Shown in pieces: positions 31,782 to 39,078 of a stretch of DNA of 64,000 bases; position 1 is the stretch's first letter, and each line of letters opens with the position of its first letter. Source of the stretch: Candidatus Kryptoniota bacterium. GTDB taxonomy: Bacteria > Bacteroidota > Ignavibacteria > Kryptoniales > JAKASW01. A model generated the notes under the pieces. The model was not told the origin of the DNA and searched no databases. It was given only the letters and a program-made list of their open reading frames with translations. A program made the position numbers and the translations under genes. The DNA is taken from NCBI GenBank assembly GCA_036567965.1, contig DATCTN010000030.1, forward strand, positions 124,001 through 188,000, given 5' to 3'.

Positions 31782-33032
31782 ATGACTACCAATTCCATTG
31801 AATATGTCCGCAAAACACTTGACGACGTTTACAGGACGGAGTCACGTCGTATCCTCGCGACGCTCATCCGTCTCCTCGGCGACTTCGATATAGCTGAAGA
31901 CGCCATGCACGACGCCTTCAATGCTGCGCTTGATCAGTGGCAGGCTGATGGGGTTCCCGCAAATCCGAGAGCGTGGCTCGTCTCGGCCGGCCGGTTCAAG
32001 GCCATCGACCAGATTCGGCGTCATGCTCGTTTCGAGACTTCCCTCGAGCCGATTATCGACCAGGTGTCGAATACTCCCGATGCGGTGGCCGAATTTGATA
32101 ATGGTGAGATCGAAGACGACCGGCTGCGCCTGATCTTTACGTGCTGCCACCCCGCGCTGGCGCCGGAAGCACGCGTCGCTCTGACTTTGCGCGAAGTCTG
32201 CGGCCTGACTACAGAAGAAATAGCAAGAGCGTTTCTGACAACGCCGTCCACACTTGCTCAAAGAATAGTAAGAGCAAAATCAAAAATCCGTGACGCGCAC
32301 ATTCCCTATCAGGTTCCATCTCAATCCGACCTTCCTGAAAGGCTGGAGACCGTGCTCCAGGTTGTTTACCTGGTCTTTAACGAGGGTTACTCGGCATCGG
32401 CGGGGAAGTCCGTGACGCGTGCCGACCTTTCATCAGAAGCGATCAGGTTGGGTCGCCTCATTGTCGAGCTACTCCCCGAGCCGGAGGCACTCGGTCTTCT
32501 GGCTCTTATGCTTCTCCACGAATCGCGAAGAGCTGCCCGCATGTCTCCCGAAGGTGAATTGGTTCTTCTCGAAAACCAGGAACGCTCGTTGTGGAATCGC
32601 GATATGATCGCCGAAGGCGTTCCGCTGGTCGAAAGAGCAATAGCATCCCAACGATTCGGGCCGTACACCGTTCAGGCGGCGATCTCTGCAGTTCATGCGG
32701 AAGCAACAGCTGCTTCTGAGACCGACTGGAACGAAATTGTCGCACTGTATGACCTTCTCATCCGCCTTAACCCTTCTCCAATTGTCGAGTTAAATCGGGG
32801 CGTTGCAGTAGCCATGCGGGACGGTCCATCGGCTGGGCTGAAAATCGTAGATGCTATCCTCGAGCGCGGAGAACTGAACGACTATCACCTCGCACATTCT
32901 GCCCGTGCTGAGCTTTGCCGACGGCTTGGAAAAACCACCGACGCGCGAATGTCCTATGAGCGCGCGCTGAAGCTCACTCGTCAGGAACCCGAACGTAGAT
33001 TCCTGGAGTCGCAACTGAAGAAACTGAAATGA
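31782..33032 (+). CDS. ECF42-type RNA polymerase sigma factor with C-terminal TPR-like domain
   Basis: A 416-residue sigma factor of the ECF group whose members carry a long C-terminal extension and sit beside DGPF/YCII genes. Sigma region 2 spans about residues 15-80 (LLGDFDIAEDAMHDAFNAAL, then NPRAWLVSAGRFKAIDQIRR), and region 4 about 105-165 (TLREVCGLTTEEIARAFL, then TPSTLAQRIVRAKSKIR). From about 185 to the end is the DUF6596/TPR-like extension with VYLVFNEGYSAS and ERALKLTRQEPERRFL. No anti-sigma factor is adjacent, as usual for this group, so the extension probably controls activity. Its likely target promoters are at 33048, 33478 and 34831. Confidence 0.92.
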   Translation: MTTNSIEYVRKTLDDVYRTESRRILATLIRLLGDFDIAEDAMHDAFNAALDQWQADGVPANPRAWLVSAGRFKAIDQIRRHARFETSLEPIIDQVSNTPDAVAEFDNGEIEDDRLRLIFTCCHPALAPEARVALTLREVCGLTTEEIARAFLTTPSTLAQRIVRAKSKIRDAHIPYQVPSQSDLPERLETVLQVVYLVFNEGYSASAGKSVTRADLSSEAIRLGRLIVELLPEPEALGLLALMLLHESRRAARMSPEGELVLLENQERSLWNRDMIAEGVPLVERAIASQRFGPYTVQAAISAVHAEATAASETDWNEIVALYDLLIRLNPSPIVELNRGVAVAMRDGPSAGLKIVDAILERGELNDYHLAHSARAELCRRLGKTTDARMSYERALKLTRQEPERRFLESQLKKLK

Positions 33033-33047
33033 GAAATCGATCCGCAT

Positions 33048-33076
33048 TGTCGATTTGAGGATCCTCCATACGATTA
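33048..33076 (+). promoter_or_regulatory. Probable ECF42 promoter 1 (before first DGPF gene)
   Basis: TGTCGATTT, 14 bases, then CGATTA. The same 29-base layout occurs at 33478-33506 and 34831-34859. It begins 16 bases after the sigma gene stop and ends 28 bases before the ATG at 33105. From memory, published ECF42 work describes a TGTCGA -35 element, which fits. Confidence 0.75.
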
Positions 33077-33104
33077 CTTATTGAACAATCAAGCGGAGCT
33101 GCGC

Positions 33105-33458
33105 ATGAAATATATGTGTCTGGTTTACGGTGAAGAGATGAAAATTGGCGCCATGACCGACGATGAGTGCATGGCGTACGACAGCGAAATTCGAAAAAGC
33201 GGTCATTGCGTCGCATCGGAGGCTTTACTCTCAGTTCGGACGGCAACTACCGTTCGTGTAAGGGACGGCCGGGTCTCTATTACCGACGGCCCTTTTGCCG
33301 AGACGAAAGAACAGCTAGCCGGATTTTACCTCGTAGAAGCAGGAGATCTGGACGAAGCGATACAAATCGCTTCCAAGATTCCACCGGCAAGCGTCGGATG
33401 CATCGAGATTCGCCCAATCAGAGAGCTAGTCAGCACTAACGGTGCGCGAAGACGATGA
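33105..33458 (+). CDS. DGPF/YCII-family protein (first of three)
   Basis: A 117-residue YCII-domain protein with the motif ITDGPFAETKEQLAGFYLVEA near residues 63-83 that names the DGPF group. YCII domains have a ferredoxin-like alpha+beta fold with a putative His-Asp active site. These proteins are typical partners of ECF42 sigma factors, but their reaction is unknown. The ATG at 33105 is chosen because GGAG lies six bases upstream; a TTG at 33081 lacks this. The gene has its own copy of the repeated promoter motif. Confidence 0.88.
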   Translation: MKYMCLVYGEEMKIGAMTDDECMAYDSEIRKSGHCVASEALLSVRTATTVRVRDGRVSITDGPFAETKEQLAGFYLVEAGDLDEAIQIASKIPPASVGCIEIRPIRELVSTNGARRR

Positions 33459-33477
33459 AGAAAATTTTCTCTCCGGA

Positions 33478-33506
33478 TGTCGATTTCTAACACTGTCGTT
33501 CGACTA
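33478..33506 (+). promoter_or_regulatory. Probable ECF42 promoter 2 (before DoxX-like gene)
   Basis: TGTCGATTT, 14 bases, then CGACTA, spaced exactly as at 33048 and 34831. It ends 42 bases before the ATG at 33549. An upstream ATG at 33477 in the gene's frame overlaps this element and is therefore an unlikely start. Confidence 0.75.
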
Positions 33507-33548
33507 TCTGTTGTAGGCAATAAGAAATTAAACAAAAAGAGAGAAGTC

Positions 33549-33974
33549 ATGGAGCACTCAATAGAATCAGTTTCGCCGAAGAGATCACTTTGGGAGAAGA
33601 AGGGACTTTGGACGGGGCGTATCATGAGCGGCCTGGCAGTACTCTTCATGCTTTTTGACAGCATTACTAAAGTGATGAAGGTTGCACCAGTAATGAAAGC
33701 ATCCGCTCAACTGGGATATCCGGCCGAAGCCATTTCAGCTATCGGGATCATATTACTTGCCTGTGTTATTGTCTACGTGGTTCCGCGAACTTCCATAATT
33801 GGCGCGATTCTCCTCACTGGCTACCTCGGTGGAGCGGTCGCTTCCAACCTGCGCATCGGCACGCCACTTTTCAGCAATGTCCTGTTCCCGGTGTACTTTG
33901 CTGTGCTGGTTTGGGGCGGCCTGTACTTGCGCAAACAGATTGTCCGCTCAATATTCTCACTTCGAAAGGCGTAG
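33549..33974 (+). CDS. DoxX-like (DoxX_2) membrane protein
   Basis: A 141-residue membrane protein with four hydrophobic segments (about residues 23-42, 58-78, 82-102 and 105-125). The DoxX_2 pattern is visible in GLAVLFMLFDSITKVMK, LGYPAEAISAIGIILLACVIVYVVP and GYLGGAVASNLR. Its function is unknown; it is commonly found beside ECF/YCII genes. The ATG at 33549 is preferred over 33477 because an AGAGAGAAG purine tract precedes it and the longer form would start within the promoter motif. Confidence 0.85.
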   Translation: MEHSIESVSPKRSLWEKKGLWTGRIMSGLAVLFMLFDSITKVMKVAPVMKASAQLGYPAEAISAIGIILLACVIVYVVPRTSIIGAILLTGYLGGAVASNLRIGTPLFSNVLFPVYFAVLVWGGLYLRKQIVRSIFSLRKA

Positions 33975-33998
33975 AGCCGGAAGTTGTATGAAGAGTCC

Positions 33999-34040
33999 AC
34001 GGCTGATGTCTGATATTACTGCTCGTTCATCGTCAGCCGT
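33999..34040 (+). terminator. Stem-loop downstream of the DoxX-like gene
   Basis: ACGGCTGATG at 33999-34008 pairs with CGTCAGCCGT at 34031-34040 (ten pairs, one G-T), with a 22-base loop and a pyrimidine-rich but not purely T tail. It could end the DoxX-like transcript, but the large loop makes this uncertain. Confidence 0.35.
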
Positions 34041-34065
34041 TTGCTCTTCTCCTGTCTCACAATCA

Positions 34066-34075
34066 TGTCCACTTT
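34066..34075 (+). promoter_or_regulatory. Shared TGTCCACTTT element before first reductase gene
   Basis: The decamer TGTCCACTTT, followed by CCGG after six bases, lies 51 bases before the ATG at 34127. The same decamer occurs at 35546 before the third DGPF gene. It may be a degenerate relative of the TGTCGATTT motif, but it lacks a well-spaced CGA element. Confidence 0.3.
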
Positions 34076-34126
34076 GACGTTCCGGGAGTTTCGCTCATAA
34101 TATCAAAATCGGTTGGAGGAATTTGA

Positions 34127-34690
34127 ATGCGTAAGTTAATCGTGTTTAACAGCGTATCGTTGGACGGGTACTTCGTGGATGTGAAGGGCGACATGAGTTG
34201 GGCTCACAATACTGATCCTGAGTTCAAAAAGTTTGTGGAAGGCAACGCGAAAGGCGGTGGCGTGCTCCTGTTCGGGAGGATTACTTATGATTTGATGGTG
34301 AGCTATTGGCCGACCCCGGCTGCCCAAAAGAATAACCCGGTGGTTGCGGAGAGGATGAACAACGGGGAGAAGATCGTATTCTCAAGAACGATGGAGAAAC
34401 CTGCCTGGAATAATACCAAGTTGATAAAGGAAGATATCGTGGCGGCAATCAAAAAGATGAAGCAGGAGCCCGGGTCGGGTCTGGTGCTTATGGGAAGCGG
34501 CAGCATTGTCTCTCAATTTGCTCAGGAGGGATTGATTGATGAGTATCAGATTGTTGTCGTTCCAGTTGTACTCGGCGGAGGAAGGACGATGTTCCAAGGC
34601 ATAAGAGGCAAAATACCGATGAGACTGGTAAGTTCCCGCTCATTCGGAAATGGTAACGTCTTCCTTTCATACGAACCGGCCCTCAAATAG
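34127..34690 (+). CDS. RibD C-terminal/dihydrofolate-reductase-like protein (first of two)
   Basis: A 187-residue protein of the RibD-C/DHFR-like fold: RKLIVFNSVSLDGYFVD at the start, LLFGRITYDLMVSYWP near residue 47, and LMGSGSIVSQFAQEGLIDEYQIVVVPVVLGGG near 125-155. These motifs bind NADPH and a heterocyclic substrate in relatives; the substrate here is unknown. GGAGG lies upstream of the ATG. A paralogue is encoded at 36125-36682, and both sit among DGPF genes as in other ECF42 loci. Confidence 0.87.
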   Translation: MRKLIVFNSVSLDGYFVDVKGDMSWAHNTDPEFKKFVEGNAKGGGVLLFGRITYDLMVSYWPTPAAQKNNPVVAERMNNGEKIVFSRTMEKPAWNNTKLIKEDIVAAIKKMKQEPGSGLVLMGSGSIVSQFAQEGLIDEYQIVVVPVVLGGGRTMFQGIRGKIPMRLVSSRSFGNGNVFLSYEPALK

Positions 34691-34830
34691 CCACATATGA
34701 TCGTAAACCCTATGATGCAGTTCGAAGAACAATTTCGAAAACCAATGGTCCTGTGTGGCAAGACTTCCAAATTTTCTTTCCTTTATGGGATACTCTTATG
34801 CACGACCATTGACATTCGTAATCACATTGA

Positions 34831-34859
34831 TGTCGATTTGGGGACTTGTCAATCGACTA
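34831..34859 (+). promoter_or_regulatory. Probable ECF42 promoter 3 (before second DGPF gene)
   Basis: TGTCGATTT, 14 bases, then CGACTA, the third copy of the layout seen at 33048 and 33478. It ends 46 bases before the ATG at 34906. Confidence 0.75.
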
Positions 34860-34905
34860 AATAGTGTGAACAGTAAATCAATTCAAATAAAAAGGAGTCA
34901 ATAAA

Positions 34906-35370
34906 ATGAGATTCATGATGTTTATGATCCCGCCGGAGTATCAGCCGGACGCACCTCCGAGCCAAAAAGCTGCGGCAGACTTCGCTCCTCCTGCAGAAGC
35001 AGTCGCTGCAATGATGAAGTACAACGAGGAGTTGGCGAAAGCCGGCGTACTCATTTCACTTGACGGACTTCATCCGATGCTGAAAGGTGCGAGAGTTACG
35101 TTCAAAGGGGGAAAGACAGCAGTAACTGACGGCCCGTATGTCGAGGCGAAAGAAGTCGTCGGCGGATACTGGATGATCGACGTCAAATCCAAGGAAGAAG
35201 CAGTCGAGTGGGCAAAACGTTGCCCGGCAGTGAAAAACGACTCCGGTGCAGTCATCGAAGTCCGACAAGTCTTCGAAATGTCTGAGTTCCCTGAAGACGT
35301 TCGGAAAGCAGGAGAAAATTCCACGGTAATGGCGGAACTCGAAAAGCACAAAGCCCGTATCAAAAGCTGA
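34906..35370 (+). CDS. DGPF/YCII-family protein (second of three)
   Basis: A 154-residue YCII-domain protein with a longer C-terminus than its two relatives in this cluster. It begins MRFMMFMIPPEYQPDAPPS, as in the subgroup once called 3-demethylubiquinone-like neighbours. Its signature is TDGPYVEAKEVVGGYWMIDV, with Tyr in place of Phe in DGPF. EEAVEWAKRCP follows and the end is lysine/glutamate rich. The reaction is unknown. AAGGAG lies upstream, and the third copy of the repeated promoter motif precedes it. Confidence 0.87.
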   Translation: MRFMMFMIPPEYQPDAPPSQKAAADFAPPAEAVAAMMKYNEELAKAGVLISLDGLHPMLKGARVTFKGGKTAVTDGPYVEAKEVVGGYWMIDVKSKEEAVEWAKRCPAVKNDSGAVIEVRQVFEMSEFPEDVRKAGENSTVMAELEKHKARIKS

Positions 35371-35545
35371 ACCTGGGACCTGGAGCTGGGTCCGAGTTAA
35401 TATGAGAGGATCCTCTATTCAATTGTTGGAAAGGACAGAGACTTCACGATCCAGTCATGCGGAGTCGAATGTTGGGTTTCTATCTTTCGGAAATGGACTC
35501 ATCATCGGACGCCGGAACTCAGTGATTGTATTTAACTCGCTCTAA

Positions 35546-35555
35546 TGTCCACTTT
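35546..35555 (+). promoter_or_regulatory. Shared TGTCCACTTT element before third DGPF gene
   Basis: Same decamer as at 34066, followed by CCGG after five bases, 45 bases before the ATG at 35601. The repetition before two genes of one cluster suggests a regulatory role; the spacing of downstream bases differs between the copies. Confidence 0.3.
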
Positions 35556-35600
35556 CAGTCCCGGACGAATTTCAGTCAATCCGAACAACAGGAGATTAAG

Positions 35601-35999
35601 ATGAAATATGTATGTCTTGGCTACATCGATGATAGTGTTTGGCAGAAGATGACACAAAGCGCCCAGAACAATTTCGTTGATGCTTGTTTCGCTTACGACG
35701 ATGAACTCCGCAAGAACGGTCACTATGTCGGTGGGGAAGGGCTGGAGAGCGCACATAACGCTGCCACTCTTCGTCCGAATAACGGACGCGTGACGGTGAC
35801 AGACGGTCCCTTTGCGGAAACAAAGGAACAAATTGGCGGCATTATGATTCTCGAAGCGAGGGACTTGAACCATGCCATCCAGATAATGTCGAGGCACCCT
35901 TCGCTGAAGCTCGGCGGTGGATGTTGGGAGATCAGACCTGCGAGTGACCTCACATCCATGATCGCGGAAAGCGAACAACGACGTTCGGGAGCAAAATGA
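35601..35999 (+). CDS. DGPF/YCII-family protein (third of three)
   Basis: A 132-residue YCII-domain protein, closest in layout to the one at 33105: MKYVCLGYIDDSVWQKM at the start, VTVTDGPFAETKEQIGGIMILEA in the centre, and GGGCWEIRPASDL near the end. The ATG at 35601 has AGGAG eight bases upstream and matches the length of relatives; an in-frame ATG at 35526 would add 25 residues with no homologous character. The catalytic role is unknown. It is part of the ECF42-linked cluster, though without an exact copy of the TGTCGA promoter. Confidence 0.87.
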   Translation: MKYVCLGYIDDSVWQKMTQSAQNNFVDACFAYDDELRKNGHYVGGEGLESAHNAATLRPNNGRVTVTDGPFAETKEQIGGIMILEARDLNHAIQIMSRHPSLKLGGGCWEIRPASDLTSMIAESEQRRSGAK

Positions 36000-36124
36000 G
36001 TCTTGTCAATTGTTACATCTGAACTCTAGGGAAGATTTTGAATGAGCGTGATTAAGTTGTCAACGAACAACTCGAGTTTTTCCTCGGAGAAAAATACGCC
36101 GAACCACAACCCGGTGAAAAGGCA

Positions 36125-36682
36125 TTGAGCAAGTTGTACATCTTCAACATGTTGACCATAGACGGTTTCTTTGAAGGAACTAACAAATGGGAAATCAGCT
36201 GGCACAACGTTGACGCAGAGTTCCACGAATTTGCGGCTGAACAACTCAATGAAACCGGTATGCTTTTGTTCGGGAGAGTCACGTACGAAGGGATGGCAAA
36301 ATACTGGACTTCTGAGACTGCATCTAAGAATGACCCGCTCATCTCGCAGTTGATGAACAGTGTTCCCAAGGTTGTCTTTTCACGGACAATGTCAAAGGCT
36401 GATTGGAGCAACACTAGATTGATAAAGGGGAATGTCTCAGAAGAAGTTCAGAAACTGAAAAGTGAAGGCAAGAAGGACATCGGGATACTCGGAAGTGCGA
36501 ACCTTGCGTCGAGCCTCATCGATAACAGCCTGATAGACGAATATCGCATCATCATCAATCCGGTCGTGCTCGGGAAGGGCAGTCCAATGTTCTTGACAAC
36601 GCGGCCCATGCCGAACATCAAACTTCTCAGATCCAGGATTTTCAAGTCAGGGAATGTGCTTCTCACCTACGGTCCCAAGTAG
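36125..36682 (+). CDS. RibD C-terminal/dihydrofolate-reductase-like protein (second of two)
   Basis: A 185-residue paralogue of the protein at 34127: SKLYIFNMLTIDGFFEG, LLFGRVTYEGMAKYW and ILGSANLASSLIDNSLIDEYRIIINPVVLGKG. The TTG at 36125 aligns with the paralogue's start; AAAAGG lies just upstream. The frame continues open upstream to 36056 with a protein-like but startless sequence (QLEFFLGEKYAEPQPGEKA), so a fragment of another gene may be joined in frame here. Substrate unknown. Last gene of the ECF42-linked group. Confidence 0.85.
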   Translation: MSKLYIFNMLTIDGFFEGTNKWEISWHNVDAEFHEFAAEQLNETGMLLFGRVTYEGMAKYWTSETASKNDPLISQLMNSVPKVVFSRTMSKADWSNTRLIKGNVSEEVQKLKSEGKKDIGILGSANLASSLIDNSLIDEYRIIINPVVLGKGSPMFLTTRPMPNIKLLRSRIFKSGNVLLTYGPK

Positions 36683-37090
36683 GCCATACACTCAACCTCC
36701 TTCAGTCGCACATAGCTAATCGCCGGGTACCGGCCCCCCAGACTCATTGCAGTGGCTTCGGGGGATGTGCAGTTCGGCGTGAGGGCTTCATGTGCGCAGC
36801 TCGGAATTGCTCTTCATCCTCAGCGAATAGTGTAGATCCATAATCAAATTTCCAATCAAACGCGGCACAAATTCGTGCGGCTTCATTACGGTTTTGTAAT
36901 CGGGATCTTTCGACTTCCAGTTAGTCTTGAATTGCCGTCAAATTTCGCGTATTTCTTTTTGGCACGGTCCTTGCGTCTCATGTGTATAGTTATGAAAAAG
37001 ATGAGTTCAATACAGTTTTCAAAGAAGCCAGGAGCAGCAAGCTTCTGGGTTGAGAGTTCAAACAACAAAATATCCAACAGGAGGTTAGTC
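36683..37090. other. Intergenic region with sigma-54 promoter
   Basis: About 400 bases without a convincing gene between the last reductase gene and the DUF4402 gene. A short pair CCCCC/GGGGG near 36735-36770 could fold but has no T-tract. The sigma-54-type promoter at 36960-36974 is the only clear signal. Confidence 0.5.
36960..36974 (+). promoter_or_regulatory. Sigma-54 (RpoN) promoter of the DUF4402 gene
   Basis: TGGCAC, five bases, TTGC matches the sigma-54 -24/-12 consensus exactly, with GG at 36961-36962 and GC at 36973-36974 ten bases apart. Transcription would start near 36986, about 105 bases before the ATG at 37091. No RpoN activator gene is in the window. Confidence 0.65.
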
Positions 37091-37591
37091 ATGAAGAAGT
37101 TAATGTTAGTTTCGGCGATCGTCCTCGGGACAGTCGGAATGTCGATGGCGCAAAACACCGCCAATCAGGCCGTTACAATTAATGCGGCGATTATCCAGGG
37201 ACTTACGCTTTCGGTGGCGGGCGGACCCTTGAATCTTGGTACAATCGTAGCAGGGACGACTCCTGCGGCCGTCGATCCGCATACGAGCCCGATCCAGTTT
37301 ACTCTTACCGGCAACGGTACTTCTGTCGTAACAGTCCAGTATAGCTCGGTGACACTGAACGGTCCCGCCAGCTCTACACTTACTTTCACACCGACAATCG
37401 ACGGAGCCGCCTCTTCTGCCAATCAGGCGACGGCAGCTTCAGTGGCGAATAACGCGACCGTTACGCTCGGCGGCTCGAACTACAGCGCTCAAGACTACTA
37501 CTTTTGGCTTGGAGGGAGCGTTGGCACCGTCGGAGCCGGCCAGACACCAGGAGCCTACACCGGCACTTTCACTCTGACAGTACACTATTAA
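37091..37591 (+). CDS. DUF4402-like exported protein
   Basis: A 166-residue secreted protein: signal peptide KKLMLVSAIVLGTVGMSMAQ (cleavage after Ala-Gln), then a Thr/Ala/Gly-rich beta-sandwich with GGPLNLGTIVAGT near the N-terminus of the mature part and TPGAYTGTFTLTVHY at the end, the layout of DUF4402 proteins. These resemble fimbrial or surface structural subunits, but no function is established. AGGAGG lies 6-7 bases before the ATG. The promoter is of sigma-54 type and a strong terminator follows, so it is a single-gene unit. Confidence 0.82.
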   Translation: MKKLMLVSAIVLGTVGMSMAQNTANQAVTINAAIIQGLTLSVAGGPLNLGTIVAGTTPAAVDPHTSPIQFTLTGNGTSVVTVQYSSVTLNGPASSTLTFTPTIDGAASSANQATAASVANNATVTLGGSNYSAQDYYFWLGGSVGTVGAGQTPGAYTGTFTLTVHY

Positions 37592-37622: not shown

Positions 37623-37660
37623 GTGGCCCGGCGCTCAATGTGCCGGGCCGCTTTTTTTTT
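37623..37660 (+). terminator. Rho-independent terminator after the DUF4402 gene
   Basis: Ten-base-pair GC-rich stem (37623-37632 with 37642-37651, one G-T pair), a nine-base loop and nine T residues at 37652-37660. It is 31 bases after the stop codon. Confidence 0.9.
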
Positions 37661-37760: not shown

Positions 37761-37789
37761 TTGACAAAGAAATTCCGCGATGTTATTAT
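37761..37789 (+). promoter_or_regulatory. TTGACA-N17-TATTAT promoter before the T9SS cargo gene
   Basis: A canonical -35 TTGACA at 37761-37766 and a -10 TATTAT at 37784-37789 with the ideal 17-base spacer. It would give a leader of about 180 bases before the ATG at 37978. Bacteroidota sigma factors often use other boxes, so function needs testing. Confidence 0.45.
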
Positions 37790-37977
37790 TCTCGCGAGGG
37801 AACGGTAGCAGCACAGAGTTTCTGTTCGAGTCATGAGATGGAGAAGCACGACATCAATCCCGGGCATTTATTTCGTTTCGGCGTAATGTCACGTCTGCCG
37901 GATCGCGGTGTGCGTGCCTCCATTGTCTAGTGTGAAAAGGTAAGATGTCATCTCTTCATCAAATGGAGGACAAATCA

Positions 37978-39078
37978 ATGAATCATGCTAATGCGTCGAC
38001 CATCAGGTTCCATCGGGTTTTCATTTTGGCGTTGATCCTCGTCGCATTTCTCTCCGGACACTCATCCGCTCAGTCGTCGGCGAAGAACGACTTCTCGCCA
38101 AGGAATCCCTATGGAGCGCCTCGAAATCCCAGTCCTTTCTCTTTTGGCCTTTTCGCGCTTGACGTGGATTCCGTTTTCTTTGGACACACAACGGTCGGAG
38201 TGCCCAAGGTGGACTCGATTCACGGTTCCGCACAGATTGACGTTGTGTACCTAGACTCAGTCACGTCGAGCAATTCCGATTTCGTCATCATCCCGCAACA
38301 AGATACGATCAACTATGACGGTATCAACAACGTGTCGGACACTGTGAGATTCCGTATCACCCTCACGCCGCATTCCTCTGGTGCAGGCACGTCAACTCTT
38401 ACATTCTACTGGTCAAACGCTGCAGGGCCCGGACCTCTCGCTCACGCTTACCTTACAGACACAAGCGAGGTGTCATTAAACGCACTTCTAACCTCGGCCG
38501 TCGGTGCATACAGCAATGGGAAAGTTCAAATTGAATTCAAGACTTCAGCAGAAGTGAACGTGGAAGGATTTAGCATTTCCAGGAGCAGCAACGTTTCGGG
38601 TCCTTTCATCCTTATTTCCGACTGTACCACTGATGCGAACCTGCTCGCACGTGGGCAGGCTAATGCTGGTGCAGAATATGCTTTTACAGATTTGAAAGCG
38701 CTCACCGCGGGAACCTACTATTATCGCATTTCTGAGATCGACGTGAGCGGAACCTCACGACAGCTTGGTGGAGTGCTCACTGTAACTGTAGACATTCCAA
38801 ATGGCTACGCGTTGTACCAGAATTATCCGAACCCCTTTAATCCCTCGACAACTGTTAGCTTCGACATCAAACAGACATCGTCAGCAATCATTGAGGTTTT
38901 CAATGATCTTGGCGAGAGAGTCTCCCAGCAAGACTTCGGTACTGTGAATCCTGGCAAGTACACTACACAGCTGAATCTCGACAAATTCGCAAGCGGGATT
39001 TATTACTATCGCCTTTTCGTATCTTCAACTGATGGAAGCGGATTCTCTTCCACGAAGAAGATGATATTGCTGAAATAG
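37978..39078 (+). CDS. Secreted protein with T9SS type A C-terminal sorting domain
   Basis: A 366-residue cargo of the type IX secretion system. Signal peptide at about residues 10-32 (FILALILVAFLSGHSSAQ), a beta-rich middle with TLTFYWSNAAGPGPLAH, and a fibronectin-like segment. The sorting domain is about the last 85 residues: YALYQNYPNPFNPSTTVSF, IEVFNDLGERVSQQDF and SGIYYYRLFVSS, ending KKMILLK. The ATG at 37978 is chosen because GGAGG lies eight bases upstream; earlier ATGs at 37945 and 37963 would delay the signal peptide. Ligand or role unknown. No T9SS machinery gene is in the window. Confidence 0.88.
   Translation: MNHANASTIRFHRVFILALILVAFLSGHSSAQSSAKNDFSPRNPYGAPRNPSPFSFGLFALDVDSVFFGHTTVGVPKVDSIHGSAQIDVVYLDSVTSSNSDFVIIPQQDTINYDGINNVSDTVRFRITLTPHSSGAGTSTLTFYWSNAAGPGPLAHAYLTDTSEVSLNALLTSAVGAYSNGKVQIEFKTSAEVNVEGFSISRSSNVSGPFILISDCTTDANLLARGQANAGAEYAFTDLKALTAGTYYYRISEIDVSGTSRQLGGVLTVTVDIPNGYALYQNYPNPFNPSTTVSFDIKQTSSAIIEVFNDLGERVSQQDFGTVNPGKYTTQLNLDKFASGIYYYRLFVSSTDGSGFSSTKKMILLK

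Follow-up and report, generated by a model that had tools for sequence, protein, structure and literature searches.

A conserved palindrome and sigma-54 promoter ahead of DUF4402-family genes suggest a genus-wide switch for exported, pilin-like proteins in a Candidatus Kryptoniota lineage

The stretch of DNA analysed here, called the window in the following, comprises 64,000 nucleotides of a Candidatus Kryptoniota genome (G000:C30:124001-188000, on a contig of 296 kb; genome G000 has 4.15 Mb in 32 contigs and is rated 100% complete), and it holds a gene of the DUF4402 family preceded by a putative sigma-54 control region. The gene lies on the + strand at 37091-37591, where an ATG led by the Shine-Dalgarno sequence AGGAGG (37079-37084, + strand) opens a frame of 166 amino acids (aa), while a longer + strand frame of 199 aa (36992-37591) starts at a 5'-proximal ATG located at about +7. 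Upstream, the sigma-54 promoter TTGGCACGGTCCTTGCG (36959-36975, + strand, with GG at 36961-36962 and GC at 36973-36974) is an exact match to the -24/-12 elements and places the predicted +1 at 36986. The palindrome ATTACGGTTTTGTAAT (36885-36900, no strand assigned) is found 74 nt 5' of this site. Behind the gene, a sequence scan detected an intrinsic terminator on the + strand (37623-37660), formed by a 12-bp stem at 37623-37651 and nine T. Both AGGAGG and the terminator had been named in an earlier reading of the sequence, the original prediction, and both are present as described.

That prediction had also proposed a TGGCAC-N5-TTGC sigma-54 site with transcription starting at 36986. The site was found at 36960-36974 as the sole zero-mismatch site of the window, and our predicted +1 agrees. 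Sigma-54 control further presupposes an rpoN gene, of which the genome contains one (PF04552 match, E 1.2e-52), in an open reading frame of 483 aa that holds ARRTVTKYRE, a normal-looking RpoN-box-like sequence. When the whole genome was searched for TTGGCACRN4TTGC without mismatch, the window copy TTGGCACGGTCCTTGCG was the only one. Motif counting was dropped as evidence for the promoter because the reversed-pattern control found at least as many sites across the genome, and the site is considered to be above chance because it is conserved in relatives. Thus, sigma-54 control, as originally predicted, is supported through conservation rather than by the motif alone.

Relatives of the DUF4402 gene occur in 13 of the 13 genomes of the genus, with 10 matches in the source genome itself, and the comparative set consisted of the loci of these relatives with 84 family open reading frame records, a few of which are overlapping records of one locus. 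The motif GGCAYN5TTGY recurs at a constant place upstream of the family reading frames (34 rows, two of them odd). The compound pattern TTACN6GTWA-N50-75-GGCAYN5TTGY, which joins the palindrome to the promoter, gave 36 matches that cover all 13 genomes, and none in the reversed-pattern control. The distance from palindrome to sigma-54 site is 72-75 nt in 22 loci of class A, to which the window belongs, and 75-77 nt (one 85) in 11 loci of class B, although the search pattern permitted 63-88 nt. Outside the genus, the compound pattern was at background, with 34 matches versus 46 in the control (392 of 395 genomes of a phylum sample, own tally), so the pattern is specific to the genus. In the source genome, the full pattern is present on contigs C30 (the window), C16 and C6, and contig C4 carries the palindrome with a site ending in TTGA.

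A DUF4402-family gene follows 31 of the 36 compound-pattern matches. The other five comprise two class-B leaders without a DUF4402 gene (G002:C51 and G006:C27), a match ahead of a different secreted-looking protein (G012:C16), one after which no gene was recognised (G001:C326), and a last one whose spacing is off and which is probably due to chance (G012:C3). The rough expression used to label the targets missed nine rows (L050, L055, L062, L070, L074, L080, L090, L094 and L097), which were counted as DUF4402 because family reading frames were found there separately; the gene of L094 is broken and that of L070 runs off its contig. The anchored profiles exclude L084, which has a different layout, as well as L144/L188, L157, L187 and a match in L040 that lies inside a gene, 353 nt before its stop. 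Since palindrome, spacing and sigma-54 site recur together in 13/13 genomes with no control match, we conclude from the sequence comparison that the window gene belongs, as one unit, to a predicted regulon that spans the genus and has an enhancer of its own. The single-gene unit of the original prediction stands in so far as there is one gene at the window locus, but this unit is not isolated, being 1 of 31 DUF4402-family genes that share enhancer and promoter in 13 genomes. In some relatives, further family genes follow the sigma-54-led gene on the same strand (e.g., G004:C33). A single promoter match thereby becomes a defined regulon with enhancer, spacing, promoter and targets.

Sigma-54 promoters require an activator, and the region near -93 is a usual place for activators of this kind. 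The palindrome of the window, whose centre lies at about -93, is the best match (11/12) to the consensus, with 0 of 200 shuffles scoring as high, and it is probably the binding site of a sigma-54 activator. Its consensus is RTTACGN4CGTAAY in class A, with a related form in class B. The genome contains 21 PF00158 matches for sigma-54 activators, 14 of them strong (E ≤ 1.4e-60) and 7 weak, and the other genomes of the genus fall with it in a range of 11-21 per genome. The original prediction stated that no activator is near; indeed, none of the 21 matches is on the 296-kb contig, but a probable site for one is close by at 36885-36900. The form RTTACN6GTAAY was absent from all 14 strong activator loci of the source genome (about 1.5 kb on each side), and the looser TTACN6GTWA occurred once each in three of them (L023, L024 and L030).

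Based on these features, we propose that RNA polymerase with RpoN binds at 36959-36975 and that a sigma-54 activator bound to the palindrome at 36885-36900 drives transcription. The transcript would start near 36986, end at the terminator (37623-37660) and carry a single gene, with translation beginning at 36992 (about 6 nt from the mRNA 5' end), at 37091, or at both. The product would leave by a Sec-type signal sequence and fold as a pilin-like domain, which most likely forms a fibre at the cell surface through donor-strand exchange, and the same switch would govern paralogs elsewhere in the genome and across the genus. Of this scheme, the computation shows the promoter, the palindrome, the conservation and spacing of both, the conserved early ATG, the predicted fold and the terminator; activator binding, the start site, use of the early ATG, export and fibre formation are inferred. 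Taken as a whole, an RpoN and enhancer switch driving an exported, pilin-like and most likely fibre-forming protein is the explanation we consider likely. Francke et al. (2011, PMC3162934) describe sigma-54 as a controller of the bacterial exterior that commonly governs surface functions, and argue that a sigma-54 motif well placed before a gene is very probably genuine. The window case fits this picture of sigma-54 directing cell-surface genes, and the parts of that paper covered here make no mention of DUF4402 proteins. In line with canonical sigma-54 promoters, the system has the -24/-12 motif and a palindrome near -93, and its genome encodes RpoN along with many activators. It differs from them in that the targets of the compound pattern are nearly all of one exported pilin-fold family, in its near-constant spacing, and in the frequent TTGT at -12 in class A. 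A family with a pilin fold and without known function is thereby connected to sigma-54.

The start of translation allows two readings. Among 23 class-A loci (the 22 mentioned above and the C4 copy of the source genome with TTGA), an ATG is found 31-34 nt from the start of the site (+5 to +8) in 18, 15 of which read through in frame into the DUF4402 protein. In L041, L045, L046, L051 and L052, there is no Shine-Dalgarno-led ATG ahead of the signal peptide, and the early ATG is therefore the likely start in these five. The window has both starts, and in the form from 36992 the signal sequence is preceded by 33 further residues; given the conservation of the early in-frame ATG, the window protein may have 199 aa rather than 166. 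Alternatively, translation could start only from 37091, with the early ATG lying in an untranslated leader or opening a short upstream peptide. This would agree with the AGGAGG directly ahead of 37091, with the lack of the early ATG in 5 of the 23 loci, and with its frame closing after 26-30 codons in 3 of the 18 (L080, L083 and L090), although it accounts less well for the 15 open frames and for the five loci where no Shine-Dalgarno-led start is available. We regard such an exclusive start at 37091 as quite possible, somewhat short of an even call.

The assignment of the product to a DUF4402-like family was borne out, the 166-aa form scoring just over the Pfam cut-off of PF14352 (25.5 versus 25.2 bits), and no match to this form was found in NCBIfam. 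The domain covers residues 53-166 (37247-37588, + strand), and the first ~20 residues resemble, by eye, a signal peptide. A structure model was built from an alignment of 24 of 51 short family members, with a predicted local distance difference test score (pLDDT) of 87.3 and an N-terminal stretch of low confidence, and it predicts a pilin-like beta fold. In Foldseek, ranks 1-29 were all chaperone-usher pilus subunits (best CfaB at 2.9e-4, and Caf1 at 3.2e-4), followed at rank 30 by the Pyrodictium cannula fibre (9h8b). The alignment tool VIA-align returned, as its best match, the Csu pilus with Z 8.1 (root-mean-square deviation (rmsd) 9.8, 127 residues aligned) and FimG with Z 8.0 (rmsd 3.0, 109 aligned), both borderline by the tool's own note. 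A PDB sequence-profile search, whose top row was a flagellar protein aligned to the signal peptide (E 0.037), followed by Caf1 (0.17-0.67), was too weak to be used. The earlier claim of an exported, probably surface-structural protein is supported. A T9SS (type IX secretion system) C-terminal sorting domain was not found in it with Pfam or NCBIfam, and the protein was thus rejected as a T9SS cargo.

The protein shares its predicted fold, the flexible N-terminal stretch and the signal peptide seen by eye with the chaperone-usher pilins CsuA/B of Csu, CfaB of CFA/I, Caf1 and FimG. On the other hand, neither the outer-membrane usher PF00577 nor the PapD-type chaperone PF00345 (PapD_N) gave a match in the genome at E 0.001, whereas the E. 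coli control was positive for both, and a chaperone-usher pilus was therefore rejected. A fibre would thus need another route, which speaks against our proposal, as do the template modelling scores (TM-scores) of 0.27-0.50 by query length across Foldseek ranks 1-29 and the borderline Z of ~8, which a hexosaminidase domain nearly reaches (7.5). Usher-free assembly is known from Sulfolobus threads, TasA and the Pyrodictium cannula. As far as the covered parts of the sources go, TasA filaments form by donor-strand exchange (PMC9674648), and the threads consist of secreted beta-sandwich subunits in strand-donating filaments (PMC9715654). These secreted beta-sandwich filament subunits could serve as a model for the DUF4402 protein, but they belong to other organisms with other envelopes and have no demonstrated sequence-family relation to it, and here an outer membrane has to be crossed. 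The protein is thus possibly a self-assembling surface fibre subunit, which raises the question of donor-strand fibres in an outer-membrane bacterium without the usual chaperone and usher. Instead, it may act as a monomer at the surface or in the periplasm and have no more than the Ig-like fold in common with pilins, as the missing usher and chaperone, the modest structural scores and the non-pilin beta domains among the matches would allow. The unbroken run of pilins at the top of the Foldseek ranking, the presence of many family copies, some with two domains in open frames of ~300-350 aa, and the low-confidence N-terminal stretch, as with donor strands in pilins, favour the fibre, and we lean against a monomer while taking it as a real possibility. 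A literature search for DUF4402 in one limited collection found no paper.

Several observations weigh against the proposed control region. Genome-wide, TTGGCACRN4TTGC with at most one mismatch gave 15 matches against 25 in the reversed control, and the looser YYGGCAYRN4TTGY gave 8 against 10. At -12, 15 of the 22 class-A loci have TTGT and 7, among them the window, have TTGC, and the copy on C4 has TTGA; in class B, TTGC is found in 10 of 11 loci. Besides, the class-A palindrome scored on class B was, in 3 of 9 rows, no better than 24-32% of shuffles, so the class-B palindrome is related but not identical. Among the matches listed, no activator gene lies within ~20 kb of a DUF4402 match anywhere in the genus. 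This last point would fit an ordinary regulator, i.e., a real sigma-54 promoter next to the palindrome of a repressor or of an activator not acting on sigma-54, with no enhancer-type switch; such an arrangement seems unlikely, given that the palindrome is paired with sigma-54 sites at a near-fixed distance in 13/13 genomes and that a sigma-54 promoter needs its activator in any case. That the site is a chance match or relic, with transcription of the gene coming from an unseen sigma-70-type promoter, is highly improbable, since, despite the motif counts, site, spacing and palindrome are conserved in all 13 genomes and no + strand sigma-70 site was listed between 36683 and 37091 in a simple scan that does not cover every promoter type.

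Besides the enhancer-promoter arrangement of the window, we detected in 11 of the 13 genomes a class-B promoter (own copy at G000:C6:44412) with CGGACGCTCTCCACCGTACGCGCCGGCCGGCACACGGCGGT starting at its predicted +1, a 41-nt leader whose copy in the source genome lies at G000:C6:44439-44479 (L071:1140-1180). Across the 11 genomes, 36 of its 41 columns are invariant and the mean column identity is 98%, and six class-B loci compared with Rfam gave no match to the leader up to E 5. Nine of the 11 leaders precede a DUF4402 gene. Those of G002 and G006 have one common variant form, and no family match is listed on their contigs, with only ~450 nt beyond the leader in G002. Its start at the predicted +1 makes an RNA element more probable than a DNA element, and since two genomes retain the leader although no DUF4402 gene was found after it, it may even function as an RNA itself. 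In a hairpin sketched by eye, four of the five variable columns form pairs with one another (17-37 and 23-30), which suggests a structured leader, with only four distinct rows to compare. The covariation score of this hairpin was equalled by 62 of 500 shuffles, slid versions pair far worse, and single-sequence folding gave a different structure with z -1.01. The leader is a candidate new RNA element. The fullest version of our reading, a dedicated sigma-54 enhancer switch acting genus-wide on usher-less, self-assembling donor-strand surface fibres, with class A translating almost from the RNA 5' end and class B carrying a new, near-invariant structured leader that is maybe an RNA in its own right, is tentative and on balance doubtful.

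Four near-matches to the first 20-22 nt of the leader (G004:C78, G008:C44, L115 and L118) were dropped as chance, the rest of the leader being absent. L186 (G104) and L084 (G005:C26) have sigma-54-like sites with a short hairpin containing AATAGGCGG soon after +1, possibly a third leader type.

In a sample of the taxonomic class (119 genomes), a family match was found in 19 of 108 genomes outside the genus. From these, 18 loci were fetched and 17 gave a row (L204 gave none). Sigma-54-like sites, by a crude score, were observed 93-150 nt before the match in 5 of the 17 (L199, L201, L206, L207 and L208), and the palindrome only at L199 and L197, at other places. Conservation of the switch beyond the genus is thus suggestive only. 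In another family of the class (G073), L183 and L184 show TTACN6GTAAT and a ATGGCAYRYGTTTTGT-like site before two small, secreted-looking proteins that resemble each other but not DUF4402, where a switch of the same type may act on different targets.

In L094 (G009:C33), palindrome and promoter are intact, the DUF4402 coding region is cut short early and followed by unrelated sequence, and the leader holds an extra inverted-repeat stretch. In the source genome, the ends of contigs C4 and C16 and the start of C24 (L069, L070 and L064) break at a shared repeat. Two DUF4402 genes there have an identical 141-bp stretch within the coding region with differing flanks, likely due to gene conversion between paralogs or to assembly overlap in such a repeat.

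Downstream of the unit, the gene at 37945-39078 encodes a protein with a T9SS tail (Por_Secre_tail and TIGR04183), and a motif scan found ahead of it a sigma-70-like promoter, TTGACA-17-TATTAT (37761-37789, 11/12 match), in agreement with the earlier claim of a secreted neighbour under a promoter of another type. On the 5' side, 31782-36682 holds genes that, judged by eye, we take to encode a 416-aa sigma-factor-like, a YCII-like and a reductase-like protein.
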